A DNA stretch of 64,000 nt, from NCBI RefSeq assembly GCF_033441515.1, contig NZ_JAWQJT010000003.1, forward strand, positions 868,001 to 932,000, read 5' to 3'. Made by a program: the position numbers and the translations under genes. This DNA is from Amycolatopsis solani (GTDB lineage: Bacteria > Actinomycetota > Actinomycetes > Mycobacteriales > Pseudonocardiaceae). The notes under the pieces were generated by a model. It searched no databases, was not told the DNA's origin, and was given only the letters and a program-made list of their open reading frames with translations. Of this stretch, positions 1,376 through 19,125 are shown piece by piece. Positions within the stretch are counted from its first letter, which is position 1. The number at the start of each line of letters is the position of its first letter.

Positions 1376-3004
1376 TCAGCCCTGGTGCGGGTAGCGGACG
1401 GTGGTCGGCGGGACGAACGTCTCCTTGATCGAGCGCGGGCTGGTCCAGCGCTGGAGGTTGAAGATCGACCCGGCTTTGTCGTTGGTGCCCGAGGCCCGCG
1501 CGCCGCCGAACGGCTGCTGGCCGACGACGGCACCGGTCGGCTTGTCGTTGACGTAGAAGTTGCCGGCGGCGAACCGCAGCGCCTCGGACGCCTTCGCCAC
1601 GGCCGCGCGGTCGTCGGCGATGATCGCGCCGGTCAGCGCGTACGCGGCGGTCTCGTCGACGAGCTTCAGCACCGCGTCGAAGTCGCCGTCTTCGTAGACG
1701 TGGATCGACAGGATCGGCCCGAAGTACTCGGTCGAGAAGATCTCGTGCTTCGGGTTGTCCGACACGAGGATCGTGGGCTGCACGAAGTAGCCGACGCTGT
1801 CGTCGGCGGTGCCGCCGGTCAGCACCTCGACCGACGCGTCGTCCTTGACGCGGTCGAACAGCGCCGTGTGCTTGGCGAACGCGCGTGCGTCGATGACCGC
1901 GCCGCCGAAGTGCGACAGGTCGGTGACGTCGCCGTAGGTCAGCGCCTCGGTCTCCGCGACCAGGCCGTCCTTCACCCGGTTCCAGACACTGCGAGGGATG
2001 TACGCGCGCGAAGCGGCGGAGCACTTCTGGCCCTGGTACTCGAAGGCGCCGCGGACGAGCGCGGTGCGCAGGACGTCGACGTCGGCCGACGGGTGCGCGA
2101 CGATGAAGTCCTTGCCGCCGGTCTCGCCGACCAGCCGCGGGTACGAGCGGTAGCCCGCGATGTTCGCGCCGACCGTGCCCCACAGGTGCTGGAACGTCGC
2201 GGTCGAGCCGGTGAAGTGGATGCCGGCCAGGTCGCGGTGGGTCAGGGCGACCTCGGAGACGGCCTTGCCGTCGCCGGGCAGCAGGTTGATGACGCCCGGC
2301 GGCATGCCGGCCTCTTCGAGCAGCCGCATGGTCAGGTGCGCGGCGAAGGACTGCGTCGGCGACGGCTTCCACAGCACCGTGTTGCCCATCAGCGCGGGCG
2401 CGGTCGGCAGGTTGCCGGCGATCGCGGTGAAGTTGAACGGCGTGATCGCGTAGACGAAGCCCTCCAGGGGGCGGTGCTCCATCCGGTTCCACACGCCCGG
2501 CGAGCTGACCGGCTGCTCGGTGAGCACGCGGCGGCCGAACTCGACGTTGAAGCGCCAGAAGTCGGCGAGCTCGCAGGCGGAGTCGATCTCGGCCTGGGTC
2601 GCGGTCTTGGACTGGCCGAGCATGGTGGCGGCGTTGAGCGTGGCGCGCCACTTGCCGGTGAGCAGGTCGGCGGCGCGCAGCAGGATCGCGGCGCGGTCGT
2701 CGTAGGACAGCGCGCGCCACTCCGGCGCGGCCTTCGCGGCCGCGGCGATGGCGTCGGTGGTGTCCTGCTGCGTCGCGCTGTGGATGGTGCCCAGCACGTG
2801 CTGGTGGTGGTGCGGCTGGACGACGTCGATCTTCTCGCCGCCGCCGGGGCGCTGCTCGCCACCGACGGTGACCGTGAGGTCGACGGGTTCCGCCTGGCCC
2901 AGCCGCTTGAGCGCACCCTCGAGTTCGGCGCGCTCAGCGCTGCCCGGCGCGTACGTCAGCACCGGCTCGTTCTTCGGGGCGGGGGTCTGGGTCACGGCGT
3001 CCAC
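1376..3004 (-). CDS. pruA: L-glutamate gamma-semialdehyde (P5C) dehydrogenase
   Basis: A 542-residue NAD-dependent aldehyde dehydrogenase that converts glutamate semialdehyde, formed from P5C, to glutamate, completing proline breakdown. It is the class with an N-terminal extension seen in actinobacteria. Visible motifs are TPFNFTAIAGNL in the cofactor domain, FTGSTATF, the catalytic cysteine segment YQGQKCSAASRAY, and EIFSTEYFGPILS near the C-terminus. It is the first gene of a two-gene operon with proline dehydrogenase and diverges from a PucR-type regulator across 118 bp containing a putative operator pair. Induction by proline through that regulator is an inference from arrangement. Confidence 0.95.
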   Translation of the reverse strand: MDAVTQTPAPKNEPVLTYAPGSAERAELEGALKRLGQAEPVDLTVTVGGEQRPGGGEKIDVVQPHHHQHVLGTIHSATQQDTTDAIAAAAKAAPEWRALSYDDRAAILLRAADLLTGKWRATLNAATMLGQSKTATQAEIDSACELADFWRFNVEFGRRVLTEQPVSSPGVWNRMEHRPLEGFVYAITPFNFTAIAGNLPTAPALMGNTVLWKPSPTQSFAAHLTMRLLEEAGMPPGVINLLPGDGKAVSEVALTHRDLAGIHFTGSTATFQHLWGTVGANIAGYRSYPRLVGETGGKDFIVAHPSADVDVLRTALVRGAFEYQGQKCSAASRAYIPRSVWNRVKDGLVAETEALTYGDVTDLSHFGGAVIDARAFAKHTALFDRVKDDASVEVLTGGTADDSVGYFVQPTILVSDNPKHEIFSTEYFGPILSIHVYEDGDFDAVLKLVDETAAYALTGAIIADDRAAVAKASEALRFAAGNFYVNDKPTGAVVGQQPFGGARASGTNDKAGSIFNLQRWTSPRSIKETFVPPTTVRYPHQG

Positions 3005-11981: not shown

Positions 11982-12000
11982 CGTGGATCGGGTGAAAGGT

Positions 12001-12423
12001 ATGAAACCCGTTGTCGGCGCGACCCCTCGCGTCGTGAAGTCCGAGCAGGAATGGCGGCAGCAGCTCAACCCCGAGGAGTACGCCGTCCTCCGCCAGGCGG
12101 GGACCGAACGGCCGTTCACCGGCGAGTACACCGACACGAAGACGACCGGCGTGTACGAGTGCCGCGCGTGCGGTGCCGAGCTGTTCCGCAGCGACACGAA
12201 GTTCGAGAGCCACTGCGGCTGGCCGTCCTTCTTCGACCCGGCGGACTCCGACGCGGTACTGCTGCGTGAAGACCGCGCCATGGGCATGAAGCGGATCGAG
12301 GTGCTCTGCGGCTCCTGCCACAGCCACCTCGGGCACGTCTTCGAGGGCGAGGGCTACCCGACCCCGACCGACCAGCGCTACTGCATCAACTCGATTTCGC
12401 TGAAGCTGGTCCCCGAGGCGTAA
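12001..12423 (+). CDS. msrB: peptide-methionine (R)-S-oxide reductase
   Basis: A 140-residue MsrB that reduces methionine-R-sulfoxide in proteins using thioredoxin. Two zinc-binding CxxC pairs are present (YECRACGAELF and VLCGSCHSHLGHVF), as are the substrate motif SHCGWPSFFDP and the catalytic cysteine in QRYCINSISL. The ATG at 12001 gives the usual N-terminus MKPVVGATPRVVKSE; in-frame GTG codons at 11983 and 11992 are alternatives, since the sequence directly before 12001 leaves little room for a ribosome site. In M. tuberculosis msrB also lies near hemQ, as here. Confidence 0.95.
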   Translation: MKPVVGATPRVVKSEQEWRQQLNPEEYAVLRQAGTERPFTGEYTDTKTTGVYECRACGAELFRSDTKFESHCGWPSFFDPADSDAVLLREDRAMGMKRIEVLCGSCHSHLGHVFEGEGYPTPTDQRYCINSISLKLVPEA

Positions 12424-12511: not shown

Positions 12512-13420
12512 ATGACCGACACCTGGGGTATTCCCGGACCGGTGTTCGCAGGCCTGTACCTGGCCCTGCTGCTCCTCACGGCGCTGGTCGCCGTGGTGCG
12601 CACGGTGCTGCTGGCGCGGGGGCACGCCGGCGGGGCGCCGGAGCGGCCGGAAGAACTCGCACTGCTGACCGGCGGGCGGCTGCGCGCCGGCGAACTCGTC
12701 GTCGCGCGCTTGCTGGAGCAGCAGGTCATCCGGCTCGACGGCACCGGCCGGGTCTCGCGCGTCAAGGGCTCGGCGTCCGACGCGCTGGGCCGCGCGGCGC
12801 TGCTGAAGGTCGGCAAGCACGGCTCCTCGATCGACCGGGTGCGCGCGACCGTCGCCGAGCACGCGGCGATGGCGGAGCTGGAAACCGGGCTGGTCGGCCG
12901 GGGCCTGCTCGCCGACCCGCGGAAGGTGCGCGCGACCCGGGTGGCCACCGCGGTGGCGTACTGGGCGCTGGTGGTCTTCGGCGTGGTCCGGCTGATCGCC
13001 GGGGCGAGCACCGGGCACCCGGTGGGCTACCTGCTCGGCCTGCTCGCGCTGGGCGTCGTCCTGGCGATCGTCACGACGGTCAAGGCCCGGAACGTGCCGC
13101 CGGTCAAGGCCACCACGGCCGGCCGGGCGGCCGCGGAAGAAGCGCGCCGAGCCGGGACGCTCACCGCGGGACCGGCCGGCGCGGTCGCCGCGGGCGGGTT
13201 CGGCGACCACCCCGACAAGGACGTCCGGCTGGCCGTCAGCCGCGCCACGCAGCAGTCGACGGCCCGCGCCTACCGCCGTCCGCGCACCCGGTGGGCGAGC
13301 GCCGGGGGCGGCGCGGCCGTCGGGTACTACGGCGGCAGCTCGTGCGGCGGCGGGGGTGGCAGCTCCTGCGGTGGTGGCGGGGGCGGTTGCGGTGGTGGTG
13401 GCGGGGGCTGCGGCGGTTGA
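12512..13420 (+). CDS. TIGR04222-type membrane protein with Cys-Gly tail (1)
   Basis: A 302-residue protein of the family I recognise as TIGR04222. A first hydrophobic segment near the N-terminus (FAGLYLALLLLTALVAVVRTVLL) is followed by a cytosolic domain of about 110 residues (ELALLTGGRLRAGELVVARL onward), then paired helices around residues 148-190 (YWALVVFGVVRLIAG, YLLGLLALGVVLAIVTTV). The last 25 residues are almost only glycine with four cysteines at 7-8 residue spacing. GAGGGAGGGCGG lies just before the ATG. It is first of an apparent four-gene operon with a paralogue, a DUF692 enzyme and a small partner. The tail looks like a substrate for modification; this is inference. Confidence 0.8.
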   Translation: MTDTWGIPGPVFAGLYLALLLLTALVAVVRTVLLARGHAGGAPERPEELALLTGGRLRAGELVVARLLEQQVIRLDGTGRVSRVKGSASDALGRAALLKVGKHGSSIDRVRATVAEHAAMAELETGLVGRGLLADPRKVRATRVATAVAYWALVVFGVVRLIAGASTGHPVGYLLGLLALGVVLAIVTTVKARNVPPVKATTAGRAAAEEARRAGTLTAGPAGAVAAGGFGDHPDKDVRLAVSRATQQSTARAYRRPRTRWASAGGGAAVGYYGGSSCGGGGGSSCGGGGGGCGGGGGGCGG

Positions 13421-13486
13421 AACGCCGACGCGAGCCCGCGCGTCTCACAGCTACGGTAACCGCGACTCACTGAGGGGAGACGGGCG

Positions 13487-14398
13487 ATGGACGACCCGTG
13501 GGGCATTTCCGGACCGGATTTCGTGGTCCTCTACATCGCGCTGCTGGGCGCGGTCCTGCTGATCAGGCGCGTGGTGTCCGGCGTCGCGAGCAGGCGCGCG
13601 CAGCGCGTGGACGACGGGCGGCCCGTCGCGCCGCCGACCGTCTACCAGCTGGCGTTCCTGGCCGGCGGCCCCGACCGGGCCGTCGACGCGGCGATCGCGG
13701 CGCTGGTGGACCGCGGGCAGCTGCGCGTCAACAGCTACAAGCAGGTCAGCCAGGCCGGGGCCCGGCCGTCGGAGCCGCTGGAGCAGGCGGTCTACGACGT
13801 GGCGCAGCTGAAGACGACGGCGGCGATCCGGGCGCGGGTCCGCGGCTCCGCGGTCATGCGGGCGCTGGAGACCGGCCTCGACCAGCAGGGCTTGCTGGCC
13901 TCGGCCGCGGCGGAGCGGCAGGCGCGGACGTTCGGGCTGTTCCTGCAGCTCGCCGTGCTGGCGCTCGGCCTGGTGCGGCTGGTCAACGGCCTCTCGCTCG
14001 GCCGCCCGGTCGGGGTGCTGGTGTTCCTGGTCCTCCTGGCGGCGGTGCTGGCGATCGTGGCCGCGGTCCGCCGGTCGAAGACGGGCGCCCGGCGGCCGTC
14101 GGCGGCGGGGCACCGGGTGCTCGGCCAGGCGCGCGCGGCGGCGTCCGGGCCGGTGCCGGCGGGCATGCTGGCGGGCGGCGCGCTGCTCGGCGGCGCCGCG
14201 GCGGCGGTCGCGCTGGGCGGCTGGGCGATGTACCCGGACGAGGAACTCAGCGCGGCGCTGACCCCGCCCATGGGTTCCGGTGGCGGCGGCTCTTCGGGCT
14301 CGTCGTGCAGCAGCGGCTCGTCCTGCTCGAGCTCGTCGTCGTGCAGCAGCGGGTCCTCGTGCGGTTCGTCGTGCGGCGGAGGGGGCTGCGGTGGGTGA
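13487..14398 (+). CDS. TIGR04222-type membrane protein with Cys-Ser tail (2)
   Basis: A 303-residue paralogue of the preceding gene with the same plan: N-terminal helix (FVVLYIALLGAVLLIRRVV), an intracellular domain beginning VYQLAFLAGGPDRAVDAAIAAL, and two central helices (LFLQLAVLALGLVRLV and GVLVFLVLLAAVLAIVAAV). A further hydrophobic stretch is GGALLGGAAAAVALGGWAMY. The tail from about residue 265 is Ser/Gly-rich with six cysteines, mostly at six-residue intervals (units like CSSGSS), ending GGGGCGG. GAGGGGAG precedes the ATG by 8 nt. Its stop overlaps the GTG of the DUF692 gene by 8 nt, implying coupled synthesis. Confidence 0.8.
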   Translation: MDDPWGISGPDFVVLYIALLGAVLLIRRVVSGVASRRAQRVDDGRPVAPPTVYQLAFLAGGPDRAVDAAIAALVDRGQLRVNSYKQVSQAGARPSEPLEQAVYDVAQLKTTAAIRARVRGSAVMRALETGLDQQGLLASAAAERQARTFGLFLQLAVLALGLVRLVNGLSLGRPVGVLVFLVLLAAVLAIVAAVRRSKTGARRPSAAGHRVLGQARAAASGPVPAGMLAGGALLGGAAAAVALGGWAMYPDEELSAALTPPMGSGGGGSSGSSCSSGSSCSSSSSCSSGSSCGSSCGGGGCGG

Positions 14399-15191
14399 GC
14401 TCGGCATCGGGATCGGCTGGCGGCACGAACTGGACCTGTCCATCGCCCGGCTCCCGGGCGTCGACTGGGTGGAGGTCGTCGCGGAGAACCTGCACGCCGA
14501 CCACCTCCCGGAGACACTGGTGGCGCTGCGGCGGCGGGGCCTGCCGGTGCTGCCGCACGCCGTCTCGCTGTCGCTGGGCGGGGCCGAGCCCCTCGACACC
14601 GGCCGCGTCCAGCACCTGGCGGAGATCGCGCGAGCGGTGGACGCGCCGCTGGTCAGCGACCACGTGTGCTTCGTGCGCGCGGGCGGGCTCGACTCGGGGC
14701 ACCTGATGCCGCTCCCCCGCACCCGAGAGGCGCTCGACGTCCTGGTGGCGAACGTCCGGCTGGCCCAGTCCATTGTGGACGTGCCGTTCGCGCTGGAGAA
14801 CATCGCCGCGGTGCTGGACTGGCCGGACAACGAGCTGACGGAGGAGCAGTTCCTCACCGAGCTGACCGACCGGACCGGCTGCCGGCTGATCATCGACGTC
14901 GCGAACCTGTACGCCAACGCCCGCAACATCGGCACGGACCCGGTGGCCTTCCTGGACGGGATCCCGTGGGAGCGCCTGGCGTACGTCCACATGGCGGGCG
15001 GGGTGGAGCGCGACGGCGTCTACCACGACACGCACGCGCACCCGGTGCTGCCGGAGGTGCTCTCGCTGTTGACGGAACTGCGGAAGCGGACGGACCCGCC
15101 GGGCGTGCTGCTGGAGCGCGACGACGACTACCCGAGCGACGAGGAGCTGGCGTCCGAGCTGGCGTCGTTGCGGGCGGCGGTGACGGTGTGA
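14391..15191 (+). CDS. DUF692 / MNIO-family iron oxidase
   Basis: A 266-residue TIM-barrel protein of the DUF692 family, now called multinuclear non-heme iron oxidases, whose studied members (MbnB, TglH, BufB) modify cysteine-containing peptides. Candidate metal ligands are His56, Asp90-His91 (VSDHVCF), Glu136-Asn137 (ALENIAAV), Asp169/Asn172 (IDVANLY), His200 (YVHMAGG), His215 and a late Glu (LLERDDD). The GTG at 14391 lies behind GGAGGGGG and inside the preceding gene. Placement directly after two Cys-tailed membrane proteins suggests those tails are the substrates; no experimental case of this pairing is known to me. Confidence 0.88.
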   Translation: MGELGIGIGWRHELDLSIARLPGVDWVEVVAENLHADHLPETLVALRRRGLPVLPHAVSLSLGGAEPLDTGRVQHLAEIARAVDAPLVSDHVCFVRAGGLDSGHLMPLPRTREALDVLVANVRLAQSIVDVPFALENIAAVLDWPDNELTEEQFLTELTDRTGCRLIIDVANLYANARNIGTDPVAFLDGIPWERLAYVHMAGGVERDGVYHDTHAHPVLPEVLSLLTELRKRTDPPGVLLERDDDYPSDEELASELASLRAAVTV

Positions 15192-15526
15192 GCCGGGAGG
15201 AGCTGGCTGAGCGGCAGGCGGAGTTGCTGCGGGCGTTGCTGGCTTCGGGCCCGGCGCCTTCCGGCTTCGACCCCGCGCGGTTGCGGGTCGAGGCTTCCGT
15301 GCTGCGGCGGAAGCACGGGCGGGTGCTGGCTGTGCAGCGGCCTGAGCTGGCTGAGGCGTTGGGTGAGCGGTACGGGGCGCTGTTCGCGGAGTTCGCGGCC
15401 GGGCGGCCGAAGCTCGCCGTGGAGCGGTCGGGGGCTTACGCGGACGAGTTCGTGACGTGGCTGATCGCGGGTGGGCACCTGCCGAAGCCCCGGCGAGGCT
15501 TGCGGGACCGGCTCCGGCGCCGCTGA
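15188..15526 (+). CDS. small partner protein of the DUF692 enzyme
   Basis: A 112-residue helical, basic-ended protein starting at the GTG that overlaps the DUF692 stop (GTGA). Features are an N-terminal amphipathic helix (REELAERQAELLRALLAS), SGFDPARLRVEASVLRRKHGRVLAVQRPELAEALGERY, FAEFAAGRP, and a basic end. The pattern Lxx-K-x-R-x-V, then RPxLxxALGxxYxxxFxxF, recalls the N-terminal DUF2063 domain of partner proteins encoded beside other DUF692 enzymes, but in a much shortened form. It probably delivers substrate or stabilises the enzyme. I am confident it is a gene, unsure of the homology. Confidence 0.75.
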   Translation: MSREELAERQAELLRALLASGPAPSGFDPARLRVEASVLRRKHGRVLAVQRPELAEALGERYGALFAEFAAGRPKLAVERSGAYADEFVTWLIAGGHLPKPRRGLRDRLRRR

Positions 15527-15635: not shown

Positions 15636-16976
15636 TCAGGGCGTCCAGGTCGGTTTGTCGACTCCCGGCAGTCGCGTGCCGAAGTCCCAGTGTGGCTCCG
15701 CGCCCGGCAAGCCGCCCGCCATGCGGACCCGCGTCAGGCGGCCGTAGCCGCTGTCCGCGTCCTCCATCAGGTCGCTGTAGTCGACCTCGACGGCCGAAGG
15801 ATCCTTGCGGCCCAGCGAATCCAGCCAGCGGCCGGTGCCCGCCAGCGACAGCCGCGCGCGCCACGTGCCGCCGTCGGTCAGCTGCCGGTGGACCGCCGTC
15901 ATGATCGCCGCCGCCGCCAGCCAGCCCGTGGCGTGGTCCAAGGCCTGGACCGGCAGCGGGGAAGGCTCCTCCGCGTCGAAAGCCATGCCGTTCGACATCT
16001 GGACCAGGCTGTCGAAGCCGCGCCGGCGGGCCCACGGGCCTTCCCAGCCGTACGCGCTCAGGTCCGCCACCACCAGGCCCGGCCGCAGCTCGGCCAGCTC
16101 CGCGGGGCCGAAGCCGATCTTCTCCAGCGCGCCCGGGCGGAACGACTGGACCAGCACGTCCGCCCGGCTGATCAGCTTCTTCAGCCGCGCGCGGCCGCCC
16201 TCGGTGTCCAGTGCCACGAACGTCGAGCGCTTGCCCTGCCCGGTGTCGCGCACCAGTGCCTCGACGCGCGGCAGGTGCGCCGCCCCGACGTGCAGGACGT
16301 CGGCGCCGTGCGCGGCCAGGACGCGCCCGGCCACCGGCCCCGCGAGCACGTGCGTCAGCTCCAGCACCCGGACGCCGCCCATCGGACGGTCCGAATAGAA
16401 CAACGTCCGTTTCGGCGCCGCGGCCACCGGTTCCAGTGAAACCAGCGGCAGCGAAGCCACCGCCGAACCCTGCGGGTGCGCTGCCCAGTCCTCCGGCGAG
16501 CGCAGCTCGGCGGCCGCTCCCCCGGCGGACACCACCGCGTGCTCGATCTCGCGCGCGGGCCGCCCGGCGACCGCCTTCGCGACCGCGGCGCGGGTGCCGG
16601 GCACGCCCAGTCCCCAGCACACCGCCGCTTCGTGGCGCGGGTAGTTGCAGTGCAGGCGGATCCAGCCGTCGGCCGCGCGGTAGTTGCCCGACAGCGGGGC
16701 CCAGACCGACTCCGCGCCGGCGCCGTCGACCCGCAGCAGCTGCTCGCTGTGGAACGCCGCCGCCGCGTGCCGCGTGTCCGCGGTGACGACGCCGGGCTCG
16801 ATGCCGCGTTCCTTCAGCAGTTCGCCGGCCGCGAGCGTGGCCGCGGCCACCGAAGCCGTGGCGGCCGCCGCGACCCGGTACGGCCCGGGCAGCACGTCTT
16901 CGGCGCCGGTCAGTTCGAAGGGCCCCGGGGCCGTGTCGGTGAGGGCACGCCAGACGCCCTCGACTGCCTCGCGCAC
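15636..16976 (-). CDS. class III (CaiB/BaiF) CoA-transferase family protein
   Basis: A 446-residue member of the family III CoA-transferases, which move CoA between carboxylic acids. The recognisable core lies in the second half: GGVRVLELTHVLAGPVAGRVLAAHGADVL, DTEGGRARLKKLISRADVLVQSFRPGALEKIGFG, LVVADLSAYGWEGPW and FDSLVQMSNGMA. The first 200 residues form a degenerate half-domain with LSGNYRAADGWIRLHCNYP. The GTG at 16976 shares its first base with the hemQ stop (TAGTG), so it is the last gene of the heme operon. The acyl substrate is unknown and a role in heme metabolism is not evident. Confidence 0.82.
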   Translation of the reverse strand: MREAVEGVWRALTDTAPGPFELTGAEDVLPGPYRVAAAATASVAAATLAAGELLKERGIEPGVVTADTRHAAAAFHSEQLLRVDGAGAESVWAPLSGNYRAADGWIRLHCNYPRHEAAVCWGLGVPGTRAAVAKAVAGRPAREIEHAVVSAGGAAAELRSPEDWAAHPQGSAVASLPLVSLEPVAAAPKRTLFYSDRPMGGVRVLELTHVLAGPVAGRVLAAHGADVLHVGAAHLPRVEALVRDTGQGKRSTFVALDTEGGRARLKKLISRADVLVQSFRPGALEKIGFGPAELAELRPGLVVADLSAYGWEGPWARRRGFDSLVQMSNGMAFDAEEPSPLPVQALDHATGWLAAAAIMTAVHRQLTDGGTWRARLSLAGTGRWLDSLGRKDPSAVEVDYSDLMEDADSGYGRLTRVRMAGGLPGAEPHWDFGTRLPGVDKPTWTP

Positions 16977-17668
16977 TACGGCAGGGCCGCGACGAGCTCG
17001 GCGGGTGGCACGCGCGTGCCGGTGTAGAACGGGATTTCCTCCCGCACGTGCAGCCGCGCTTCGGTGCCGCGCAGGTGCCGCATCAGGTCGACGATCCGGT
17101 GCAGCTCGTCGGCCTCGAAGGCGAGGATCCACTCGTAGTCGCCCAGCGCGAACGACGCGACGGTGTTGGCGCGCACGTCCGGGTAGTCGCGGGCTTCCTT
17201 GCCGTGGTCGGCCAGCATCTTGCGCCGGTCGGCGTCCGGGAGCAGGTACCACTCGTAGGAGCGGACGAACGGGTACACGCAGATGTACTTGCGCGCCTCT
17301 TCCCCGGCCAGGAACGCGGGGATGTGGCTCTTGTTGAACTCGGCGGGCCGGTGCAGCGCGGTCTGGCTCCAGACCGGCGTCGACGCGCGCCCGAGCGGCG
17401 TCCGGCGGAAGCCGGAGTACGCGGCCTGGACCTGCTCGATCTCCTCGGCGTGCCACCAGACCATGTAGTCGGCGTCGGCGCGCAGCGCGGACAGGTCGTA
17501 GACACCCCGGACCGTGACGCCCTTCGCCTCCAGGCCGTCGAGGTACTCGGCGGTCTCGCGGCCGGCGGTCCCGCGGTCCTCGCCCAGCCTGCCGGGCTCG
17601 ATCCGGAAGACCGACCAGGTCGTGTAGCGGATGGTGTCGTTGAGCTCGTTGTAGTTGACCCGCGCCAT
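16976..17668 (-). CDS. hemQ: coproheme decarboxylase (chlorite dismutase fold)
   Basis: This 230-residue protein catalyses the last step of the coproporphyrin-dependent heme pathway, decarboxylating coproheme to heme b with peroxide. It has the actinobacterial HemQ N-terminus [21 protein letters not shown] and motifs [52 protein letters not shown] and [23 protein letters not shown]. The chlorite dismutase fold is implied, but the context (hemE, hemY upstream) makes heme synthesis the role. It begins 56 bp after the hemY stop and is coupled to the CoA-transferase. Confidence 0.95.
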
Positions 17669-17724: not shown

Positions 17725-19125
17725 TCACTCCGCGAGGTGGGCCGCGATCCGCTGCGCGGCCGCCTCCGCCGTCGCCACGCACGCCGGCAGCCCGACGCCG
17801 TGCAGCGTCGCCCCGGCGACGGCCAGCCCCGGGACCGCCGCGATCGCCTTCTCGATCCGCTCGACCCGCTCGAGGTGCCCGGCGCCGTACTGCGGCAGCC
17901 CGCCGCCCCACCGCGTCACCAGCGTCTCGATCGGCGCGGCCGTCACGCCGGTCAGGCGCGCGAGGTCGTCACGGACCACGCGGACCAGCTCGACGTCGTC
18001 GGCCTGCAGTGCGCCCAGCTCGCCGAAGCGCCCGACCGAGCCGCGGACCAGCACCGGGCCGGTGCCGAAGTGACTCCACTTCCGCGAGGAGAACGTGAAC
18101 GCCTTCGACGCGTACGGCTTGCCCGCGGCGTCGCGCTCGCCGTGGCCGATCAGGATCCCCGACGCGTCCGGCAGCGGGGTGCCGGGCGGCAGCGCCAGCG
18201 CGACCACGGCCATCGACGCCAGCTCGACCTCGCCGAACGCCGCCGAAGCCGCGGGGACGAGGTCGGTCAGCAGGCGGCGGGCCGAGGGCGCGGGCACCGC
18301 GAGGACGACCGCGTCGGCCTCCACGGTGTTGTCCGCGGGCGCGTGCGCGGTCGGCGCGGCGCCGATGCGCAGCCGCCAGCCCGCGCCGTGCCGTTCGATG
18401 TCGCAGACCGGCAGCCCGGTCCGCAGCTCGGCGCCGGCGGCCTCGGTGAGCCGGTCGATCACCGTGCCCAGCCCGCCCGGGACGGTGCCGAACACCGGCG
18501 CGGTGGACGGGTTCGCGGGCAGCTGCGCGGCCGCCGCGGCGGTCAGCGACCCCGCGCCCGCGGCCAGCGCGGAGGCCAGGCCCGGCATGGTCGCGCGCAG
18601 GCCGAGACCGTCCGCCCCGCCCGCGTAGACGCCGCCGAGCAGCGGGTCGACCAGGCGGTCGACCAGTTCGTCGCCGAAGCGCTCGCGCAGCAGCGGGCCC
18701 AGCGGCAGGTCGCCGCTCGGCAGCCGCAGCTCCGGCAGGGAGACCTCGGCCTCGACGGCTCGCCGTCCGGCTTCCGAAAGCACGCCGGCCACGGACTCCG
18801 CGGACGCCGGGACGCCCATCAGCGTGCCGGGCGGCATGCCCGTCACGCTGCCGCCGGCGTGGATCTTCGCGCGAGCCTTCGTCGGGTGGACGACGTCGAG
18901 GCCGAGTTCGCGGACCAGCGCGAGCATCTCGGGACGGCGGACGAGGAACGCTTCGGCGCCGACGTCGTAGGGGACGCCGGCGAGCTCGGCCGTGCGCAGC
19001 TTCCCGCCCGGCGTCTTCGTCTTCTCGAACACGACGATCTCGGCGTCCGCGCCGAGCAGCCGTCGCAGCCGGTACGCCGCCGTCAGCCCGGAGACGCCAC
19101 CGCCGACGACCGCGACGCGCTTCAC
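17725..19125 (-). CDS. hemY: coproporphyrinogen III oxidase (HemY/HemG type)
   Basis: A 466-residue FAD enzyme that oxidises coproporphyrinogen III to coproporphyrin III in Gram-positive bacteria; older annotations say protoporphyrinogen oxidase. The dinucleotide motif [19 protein letters not shown] starts at residue 4, followed by [29 protein letters not shown]. The C-terminus has [19 protein letters not shown] and [21 protein letters not shown], the second FAD-contact segment. The GTG at 19125 overlaps the hemE stop by 4 nt (GTGA). The middle gene of hemE-hemY-hemQ. Confidence 0.94.

Follow-up and report, generated by a model that had tools for sequence, protein, structure and literature searches.

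Does an MNIO enzyme of the DUF692 family oxidise cysteines in the tails of the membrane proteins encoded beside it? The question is raised by a four-gene operon of Amycolatopsis solani, located in a 64,000 nt stretch of assembly GCF_033441515.1 (contig NZ_JAWQJT010000003.1, positions 868,001–932,000, forward strand), the whole of which is referred to here as the window. Two membrane proteins of the TIGR04222 type, each ending in a Gly/Ser/Cys tail, are followed by the MNIO and by a 112-residue protein. The pairing of enzyme and tail is supported by their co-inheritance across the window's order, which makes the tails a more likely, although not a certain, target of the MNIO. We regard it as probable that the operon encodes a membrane-tethered substrate together with its modifying enzyme, the MNIO oxidising tail cysteines and the tail staying on the membrane.

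The arrangement of enzyme and Cys tail is not itself new, being in print as an in-silico prediction. In the parts of their paper drawn on here, Antoine et al. 2025 (PMC12452194) gathered more than 3,500 TIGR04222 proteins, described Ser/Gly-rich tails with Cys and frequent MNIO neighbours, and proposed that MNIOs, together with PME-type 2 partners, act on a subset of these proteins. By the same source, 490 of 1372 genomes with TIGR04222 had no MNIO and over a quarter of the proteins lacked a C-proximal Cys; the modifications and roles of TIGR04222–MNIO sets were left for future study. The present analysis adds the order-wide co-inheritance of tail and enzyme, the co-occurrence of the partner, the fusion found in Streptomyces, and charge patterns that favour the cytosol.

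Co-inheritance of Cys tails and the enzyme

The survey sample consisted of 200 genomes from the window's order, with no more than 13 TIGR04222 candidates scored in any one genome. Copies with at least three Cys in the last 45 residues were classed as Cys-tailed, and those within 6 kb of an MNIO as MNIO-adjacent; the orientation of each locus was chosen by profile score, antisense frames being open in GC-rich DNA. An MNIO was present in 64 of the 200 genomes, TIGR04222 over the cut-off in 70, and both in 61 (2 × 2 counts 61/9/3/127), that is, TIGR04222 in 61/64 MNIO genomes and MNIO in 61/70 TIGR04222 genomes.

An MNIO lay within 6 kb of 83 of the 117 TIGR04222 copies, 116 of which have a closed frame in the DNA examined (one runs off its contig). 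Cys tails were found in 71 of the 83 MNIO-adjacent copies versus 7 of the 33 others, and among these 33 they occurred in 7 of 24 copies elsewhere in MNIO genomes and in none of nine in MNIO-less genomes. The sequence-only reading had proposed a genome search for co-occurrence of tail and DUF692 enzyme, and the outcome within the order is co-inheritance: every one of the 78 Cys-tailed copies comes from an MNIO-bearing genome. One of the seven non-adjacent Cys-tailed copies (G008) sits at a short contig's end, which hides its distance to an MNIO. Fisher tests gave p = 7.5e-11 (adjacent versus not) and p = 2.1e-05 (MNIO in the genome versus not) over a sample of 18 genera in 8 families, in which relatives are not independent.

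Counted from the enzyme, an adjacent closed TIGR04222 copy accompanies the MNIO at 59 of the 64 loci scoring over 200 bits, and all 59 include a Cys-tailed one; three of the remaining five lie at contig ends (G084, G112, G008) and two do not (G189, G073). One genus (g24) provides an internal control, as all 20 of its adjacent copies are Cys-tailed and all 11 distant paralogues (128.9–154.1 bits) are without tail Cys. These distant paralogues (L143–L153) carry 3–4 Cys in the membrane body. Some copies from MNIO-less f16 genomes have kept a Gly-rich tail without the Cys series.

Within the 78 Cys-tailed homologues, Cys makes up 10.5% of the last 45 residues (367/3510) and 0.24% of the 240 residues preceding the last 60 (44/18606). 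Gly or Ser follows Cys in 364 of 370 cases, and 64 of the 78 tails end in -CGG. Because the Cys enrichment is restricted to the tail and tracks the enzyme, an artefact of chance or composition was ruled out. The motif GGAGGG is located just before the MNIO start codon, and a Shine-Dalgarno constraint was considered as the sole cause of the -GGGGCGG end; it is insufficient, because the -CGG ending recurs in gene 1 and in four distant copies.

Organisation of the operon

The four plus-strand open reading frames (ORFs) recognised in the sequence-only reading, with overlaps of 8 nt between gene 2 and the MNIO gene (14391–14398) and 4 nt between the MNIO and partner genes (15188–15191), were confirmed from the ORF coordinates (Table 1); a gap of 66 nt separates genes 1 and 2. 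The description of the first two products as paralogous membrane proteins with Cys/Gly/Ser tails also held. They score 109 and 152.5 bits with the TIGR04222 profile, both above the NCBIfam cut-off of 43, and their C-termini read ...GGSSCGGGGGSSCGGGGGGCGGGGGGCGG, containing 4 Cys, and ...SSCSSGSSCSSSSSCSSGSSCGSSCGGGGCGG, containing 6 Cys. Membrane protein 2 has a weak DUF2207_C match (E 0.00071). The genome (10.28 Mb) holds two TIGR04222 genes and one MNIO gene in total, all inside the operon. A promoter and terminator scan found none (shuffles 0.0 and 1.1).

Table 1. Coordinates of the operon, its tail-coding segments and neighbouring genes in the window.
Feature	Position (nt)	Strand	Description
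TIGR04222 membrane protein 1 (P0001)	12512–13420	+	302 aa, 3 hydrophobic segments, 4 tail Cys, ends -CGG
Tail of membrane protein 1, Gly/Ser/Cys	13331–13417	+	29 residues, 4 Cys; putative modification region
TIGR04222 membrane protein 2 (P0002)	13487–14398	+	303 aa, ends -CGG
Tail of membrane protein 2, Gly/Ser/Cys	14273–14395	+	41 residues, 6 Cys, mostly pLDDT <50
MNIO (DUF692, PF05114 MbnB_TglH_ChrH)	14391–15191	+	266 aa, GTG start within the last codons of gene 2
MNIO partner (very probable)	15188–15526	+	112 aa, GTG start, all-helical in model, DUF2063-like
msrB	11983–12423	+	Upstream of operon
hemQ	16976–17668	−	NF042928, 368.7 bits; downstream, convergent
Protoporphyrinogen oxidase	about 17725–19125	−	Downstream, convergent

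The enzyme and its probable partner

PF05114 matches gene 3 at 279.3 bits (gathering cut-off 25), covering positions 1–261 of 263. The His/Asp/Glu ligands, which had looked intact on first reading, proved conserved: nine candidates (H56, D90, H91, E136, D169, H200, D213, H215 and E242) are each kept in 81/81 aligned MNIOs, P0003 included. Several of the nine align with His/Asp/Glu of structures 3bww and 8hci, and the enzyme aligns with structures 7dz9, 7fc0, 7tcr and 8hci. Some of these residues would bind iron in this MNIO.

Searched against the local Pfam copy, the 112-residue product of gene 4 had no match; its homologues are assigned to PF26136 in precomputed annotation, and some sources name this family 'SCO6045-like C-terminal domain'. 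It is very probably the MNIO partner, as the earlier reading had it, judging from gene order and homology. At the 80 closest named MNIO loci, of which the nearest are from Amycolatopsis, the partner was found directly after the MNIO in all 80, TIGR04222 in 78 and a Cys-tailed copy in 76; the two loci without TIGR04222 have their MNIO at most 0.6 kb from a contig end. A DUF2063 match at E ≤ 0.05 was obtained for 20 of 50 aligned partner sequences (best 5.7e-07, mostly weak). In Streptomyces the partner is fused to the MNIO (see below), and PF05114 and PF26136 stand together in 120/120 relatives of one fused protein, among the matches listed. The structural list for the partner model is headed by MbnC (7dz9_C) and TglI (8hi7_A), a weak resemblance; Foldseek with the models of the partner and of membrane protein 2 returned nothing at E ≤ 0.001, and the partner profile had a single match among solved structures (E 0.58).

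Some MNIOs of the order have no adjacent TIGR04222 copy (L174–L181). Their scores with a home-made profile are 77–248 in the five detected, the ORF filter having missed three. A second MNIO in G189 (L174, 2971–3825) scores higher with PF05114 than any other MNIO surveyed in the order (284.1 bits) and has neither TIGR04222 nor a detected partner beside it. At L176 a partner-like ORF (2313–2762, minus strand, 40.5 bits) lies beside a 184.7-bit MNIO without a TIGR04222 neighbour.

Streptomyces loci and the case for another substrate

A further set of 61 Streptomyces loci (L263–L268, L332–L371, L392–L406) comprised six longer stretches, the others including 8-kb stretches. In a survey of 61 Streptomyces genomes, an MNIO was found in 58. 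One open frame encodes MNIO and partner domain in 54 of the loci, and the partner is separate in six. Classed by TIGR04222 neighbour, 30 loci have a Cys-tailed copy, 25 only a Cys-poor copy and six none.

This is where the proposal that the tail is the DUF692 substrate stands less well: the co-inheritance of enzyme and tail in the order speaks for it, and about half of the Streptomyces loci, which lack an adjacent Cys-tailed copy, speak against it. Such a copy was not seen in 31 of the 61 MNIO loci, or in 28 of 58 once the contig-end loci L396, L401 and L403 are set aside. Because the enzyme persists at these loci, we infer that its substrate has changed there, or lies elsewhere, or that the tail is not the sole target.

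An alternative for the operon as a whole is that MNIO and partner serve another substrate, the Cys tails being unmodified thiol- or metal-binding segments that are co-inherited for some other reason, for example because the membrane protein recruits the enzyme. Besides the loci just counted, five Streptomyces genomes without a TIGR04222 match among the scored candidates agree with this, as does a small CxxC protein encoded upstream in five of the six longer stretches, all five without an adjacent Cys-tailed copy (the sixth stretch starts too close to the MNIO, and 8-kb stretches barely reach upstream). However, it is the Cys tails rather than the membrane body that track the enzyme in the order, where Cys-free paralogues with the same body sit away from the MNIO and no Cys-tailed copy falls outside an MNIO genome. 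The Streptomyces losses, moreover, are confined to loci with the fused enzyme, fragment L401 apart, and a Cys-tailed copy is present at each of the six loci where the partner is separate. Another substrate with unmodified tails is judged unlikely.

The copy of G483, a Streptomyces with TIGR04222 and no MNIO match, is Cys-free, in line with the pairing; among 20 further distant Streptomyces copies, five have at least three tail Cys, one of them (G495) beside a second MNIO. A replacement Cys-tailed ORF was sought in 19 Streptomyces loci without a Cys tail, and none of Gly/Ser type was found. The Cys filter left five coding-like ORFs in these loci, namely four homologous small CxxC proteins and one ORF of 492 residues.

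The small protein mentioned above has two CxxC pairs and is encoded about 2.4–4 kb upstream of the MNIO (L268, 4946–5155, plus strand; also L263, L264, L266 and L267). A conserved ORF of about 560 residues lies near the MNIO in 16 of the same 19 loci (L263, 7323–9086, minus strand, and homologues).

Membrane topology of the tail

The model of membrane protein 2 (pLDDT 79.2) has helices at 9–43, 140–171 and 176–198 and a compact domain at about 51–134. Net charge was counted around these transmembrane segments (TM1–TM3) in the 68 Cys-tailed copies that lie next to an MNIO and have nearly full-length matches, and alignment counts were made on 47 sequences. The net charge is positive after TM1 in 68/68 and after TM3 in 67/68; in 17 non-adjacent Cys-poor copies the corresponding counts are 12 and 17. 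The N-terminus is net acidic in 39 of the 47 aligned sequences. The acidic N-terminus and the positive charge after TM1 and TM3 suggest that the N-terminus is outside and that the domain and the stretch after TM3 are cytosolic. A cytosolic tail is on balance favoured by charge pattern and model, more firmly for P0001, whose tail is preceded by RAYRRPRTR.

Three observations weigh against this placement. Segment 4 (223–247) reaches a hydropathy of at least 1.6 (best 19 residues) in 21 of 47 sequences, with 1.77 in P0002 and 0.67 in P0001; the turn between TM2 and TM3 is net positive in 40/47 (wider cut) or 33/68 (narrow cut); and the stretch after segment 4 is net acidic in 54/68. The first and last of these would fit a tail that is extracytoplasmic, with segment 4 as an in-to-out span, and that is modified in the cytosol before or during membrane crossing and then acts outside like a tethered bufferin. 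Antoine et al. likewise place the tail outside, assigning it to the periplasm from AlphaFold models and predicted topology in the parts of PMC12452194 drawn on here. Yet the positively charged flanks of the compact domain make that domain probably cytosolic, and a tail outside would then need a fourth span. The model has no long helix after residue 198, although residues 221–240 are at low confidence (63–66), and P0001 has no hydrophobic segment 4. We consider an external tail possible but on the unlikely side.

Genomic surroundings and an expression clue

Downstream of the operon, hemQ and the protoporphyrinogen oxidase gene (Table 1) are accompanied by a CoA-transferase-like gene, also convergent. 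The place of hemQ was listed for 58 of the 64 MNIO genomes of the order; in 17 of them, all in the window's family, no more than 15 kb separates it from the MNIO, and in the remaining listed genomes the two are separated by 200 kb or more or lie on separate contigs. In Streptomyces, 51 of the 61 stretches contain hemQ. Five of the ten that do not are loci with a separate partner (of six such loci), and short stretches make up four of the remaining five. The hemQ–MNIO neighbourhood is thus conserved in two orders; the link to haem is positional and is no proof of a haem role.

Among the papers searched, none joins HemQ and DUF692, none mentions SCO6043, SCO6044 or SCO6046, and TIGR04222 appears in two. 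In the part of PMC4991794 used here, S. coelicolor SCO6045 is up 3.01-fold under hydrogen peroxide, alongside cysteine-biosynthesis genes, and this induction is lost in a mutant without HbpS-SenS-SenR. To judge by the name of the Pfam family and by the fused loci, SCO6045 would be a fused MNIO–partner protein.

Proposed mechanism

In the mechanism that we favour, the DUF2063-like partner would hold the flexible tail and present it to the MNIO in the cytosol, and the iron cluster of the enzyme would oxidise some of the tail Cys, those followed by Gly or Ser, in both TIGR04222 proteins. Thioamide or oxazolone groups, the examples given in the sequence-only reading, would be candidate products. 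To judge from charge pattern and model, the tails would more likely be on the side of the enzyme and the compact domain. The modified tail may then remain membrane-bound and form a metal- or redox-active patch, and this is the step of which we are least sure; metal binding by the product is suggested by analogy with bufferins, and peroxide induction would suit a redox role equally.

The tail might instead be a true precursor region of a ribosomally synthesised and post-translationally modified peptide (RiPP), from which a small Cys-rich product is cleaved and released after modification. Flexibility of the tail in the membrane protein 2 model would suit release, and a predicted bacteriocin cluster of Pseudonocardia, as given in the part of PMC5183585 used here, has a TIGR04222 peptide with a modifying enzyme. 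The four operon genes, however, include no protease or exporter, and the annotated neighbours in the window are msrB, the CoA-transferase-like gene, hemQ and protoporphyrinogen oxidase. A released product is judged quite improbable.

With the tail retained on the membrane, a fuller account can be offered tentatively, as a possibility less likely than not. The MNIO would oxidise Cys in the cytosolic tail of a polytopic membrane protein that stays uncleaved throughout, and a RiPP enzyme would thereby have been turned into a protein-modification system with a membrane-tethered metal- or redox-active tail; Streptomyces would later have fused enzyme and partner, many fused lineages losing the adjacent Cys tail or changing substrate. 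If this is so, the targets of MNIO enzymes extend beyond small peptides to large membrane proteins, and they do so in a gene set that is common in soil actinomycetes, as the MNIO counts in Streptomyces (58/61) and in the order (64/200) indicate. The Cys-free paralogues, the fused enzyme–partner and those Streptomyces loci that lack an adjacent Cys tail are ready-made controls, which makes the question directly testable.

Comparison with known systems

The clusters of Antoine et al. (PMC12452194, in the parts drawn on here) are of the same kind as this operon: an integral membrane protein with a Cys-bearing Ser/Gly tail adjoins an MNIO, a short DUF2063-like partner is present in part of the clusters, and most are from Actinomycetota. 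They differ in that domain and tail are placed outside, whereas the charge patterns here favour the cytosol, and in that DUF2063 genes do not figure in the clusters of that source, whereas 20 of the 50 partners match DUF2063 here, mostly weakly. The partner–MNIO fusion and hemQ were not met in the searched parts of the paper.

Bufferin systems share the combination of MNIO and DUF2063-type partner, and their maturase BufB (NF050167) is the closest curated model, at 203.3 bits. This is below the equivalog cut-off of 310, and the models for HvfB (162.5 bits, cut-off 360), ApyH (97.7, 400) and ChrH (47.5, 600) are likewise not reached. In this operon, by contrast, the putative substrates are polytopic membrane proteins that lack a Sec signal peptide, and a full RRE domain would not fit into the 112 residues of the partner.

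MbnB-MbnC (methanobactin) and TglH-TglI also combine an MNIO with a partner, and MbnC and TglI are the two proteins that head the structural list for the partner model. The substrates of both are small precursor peptides. The present MNIO scores 45.1 bits with the MbnB model (cut-off 325), and its putative substrates are the tails of membrane proteins.

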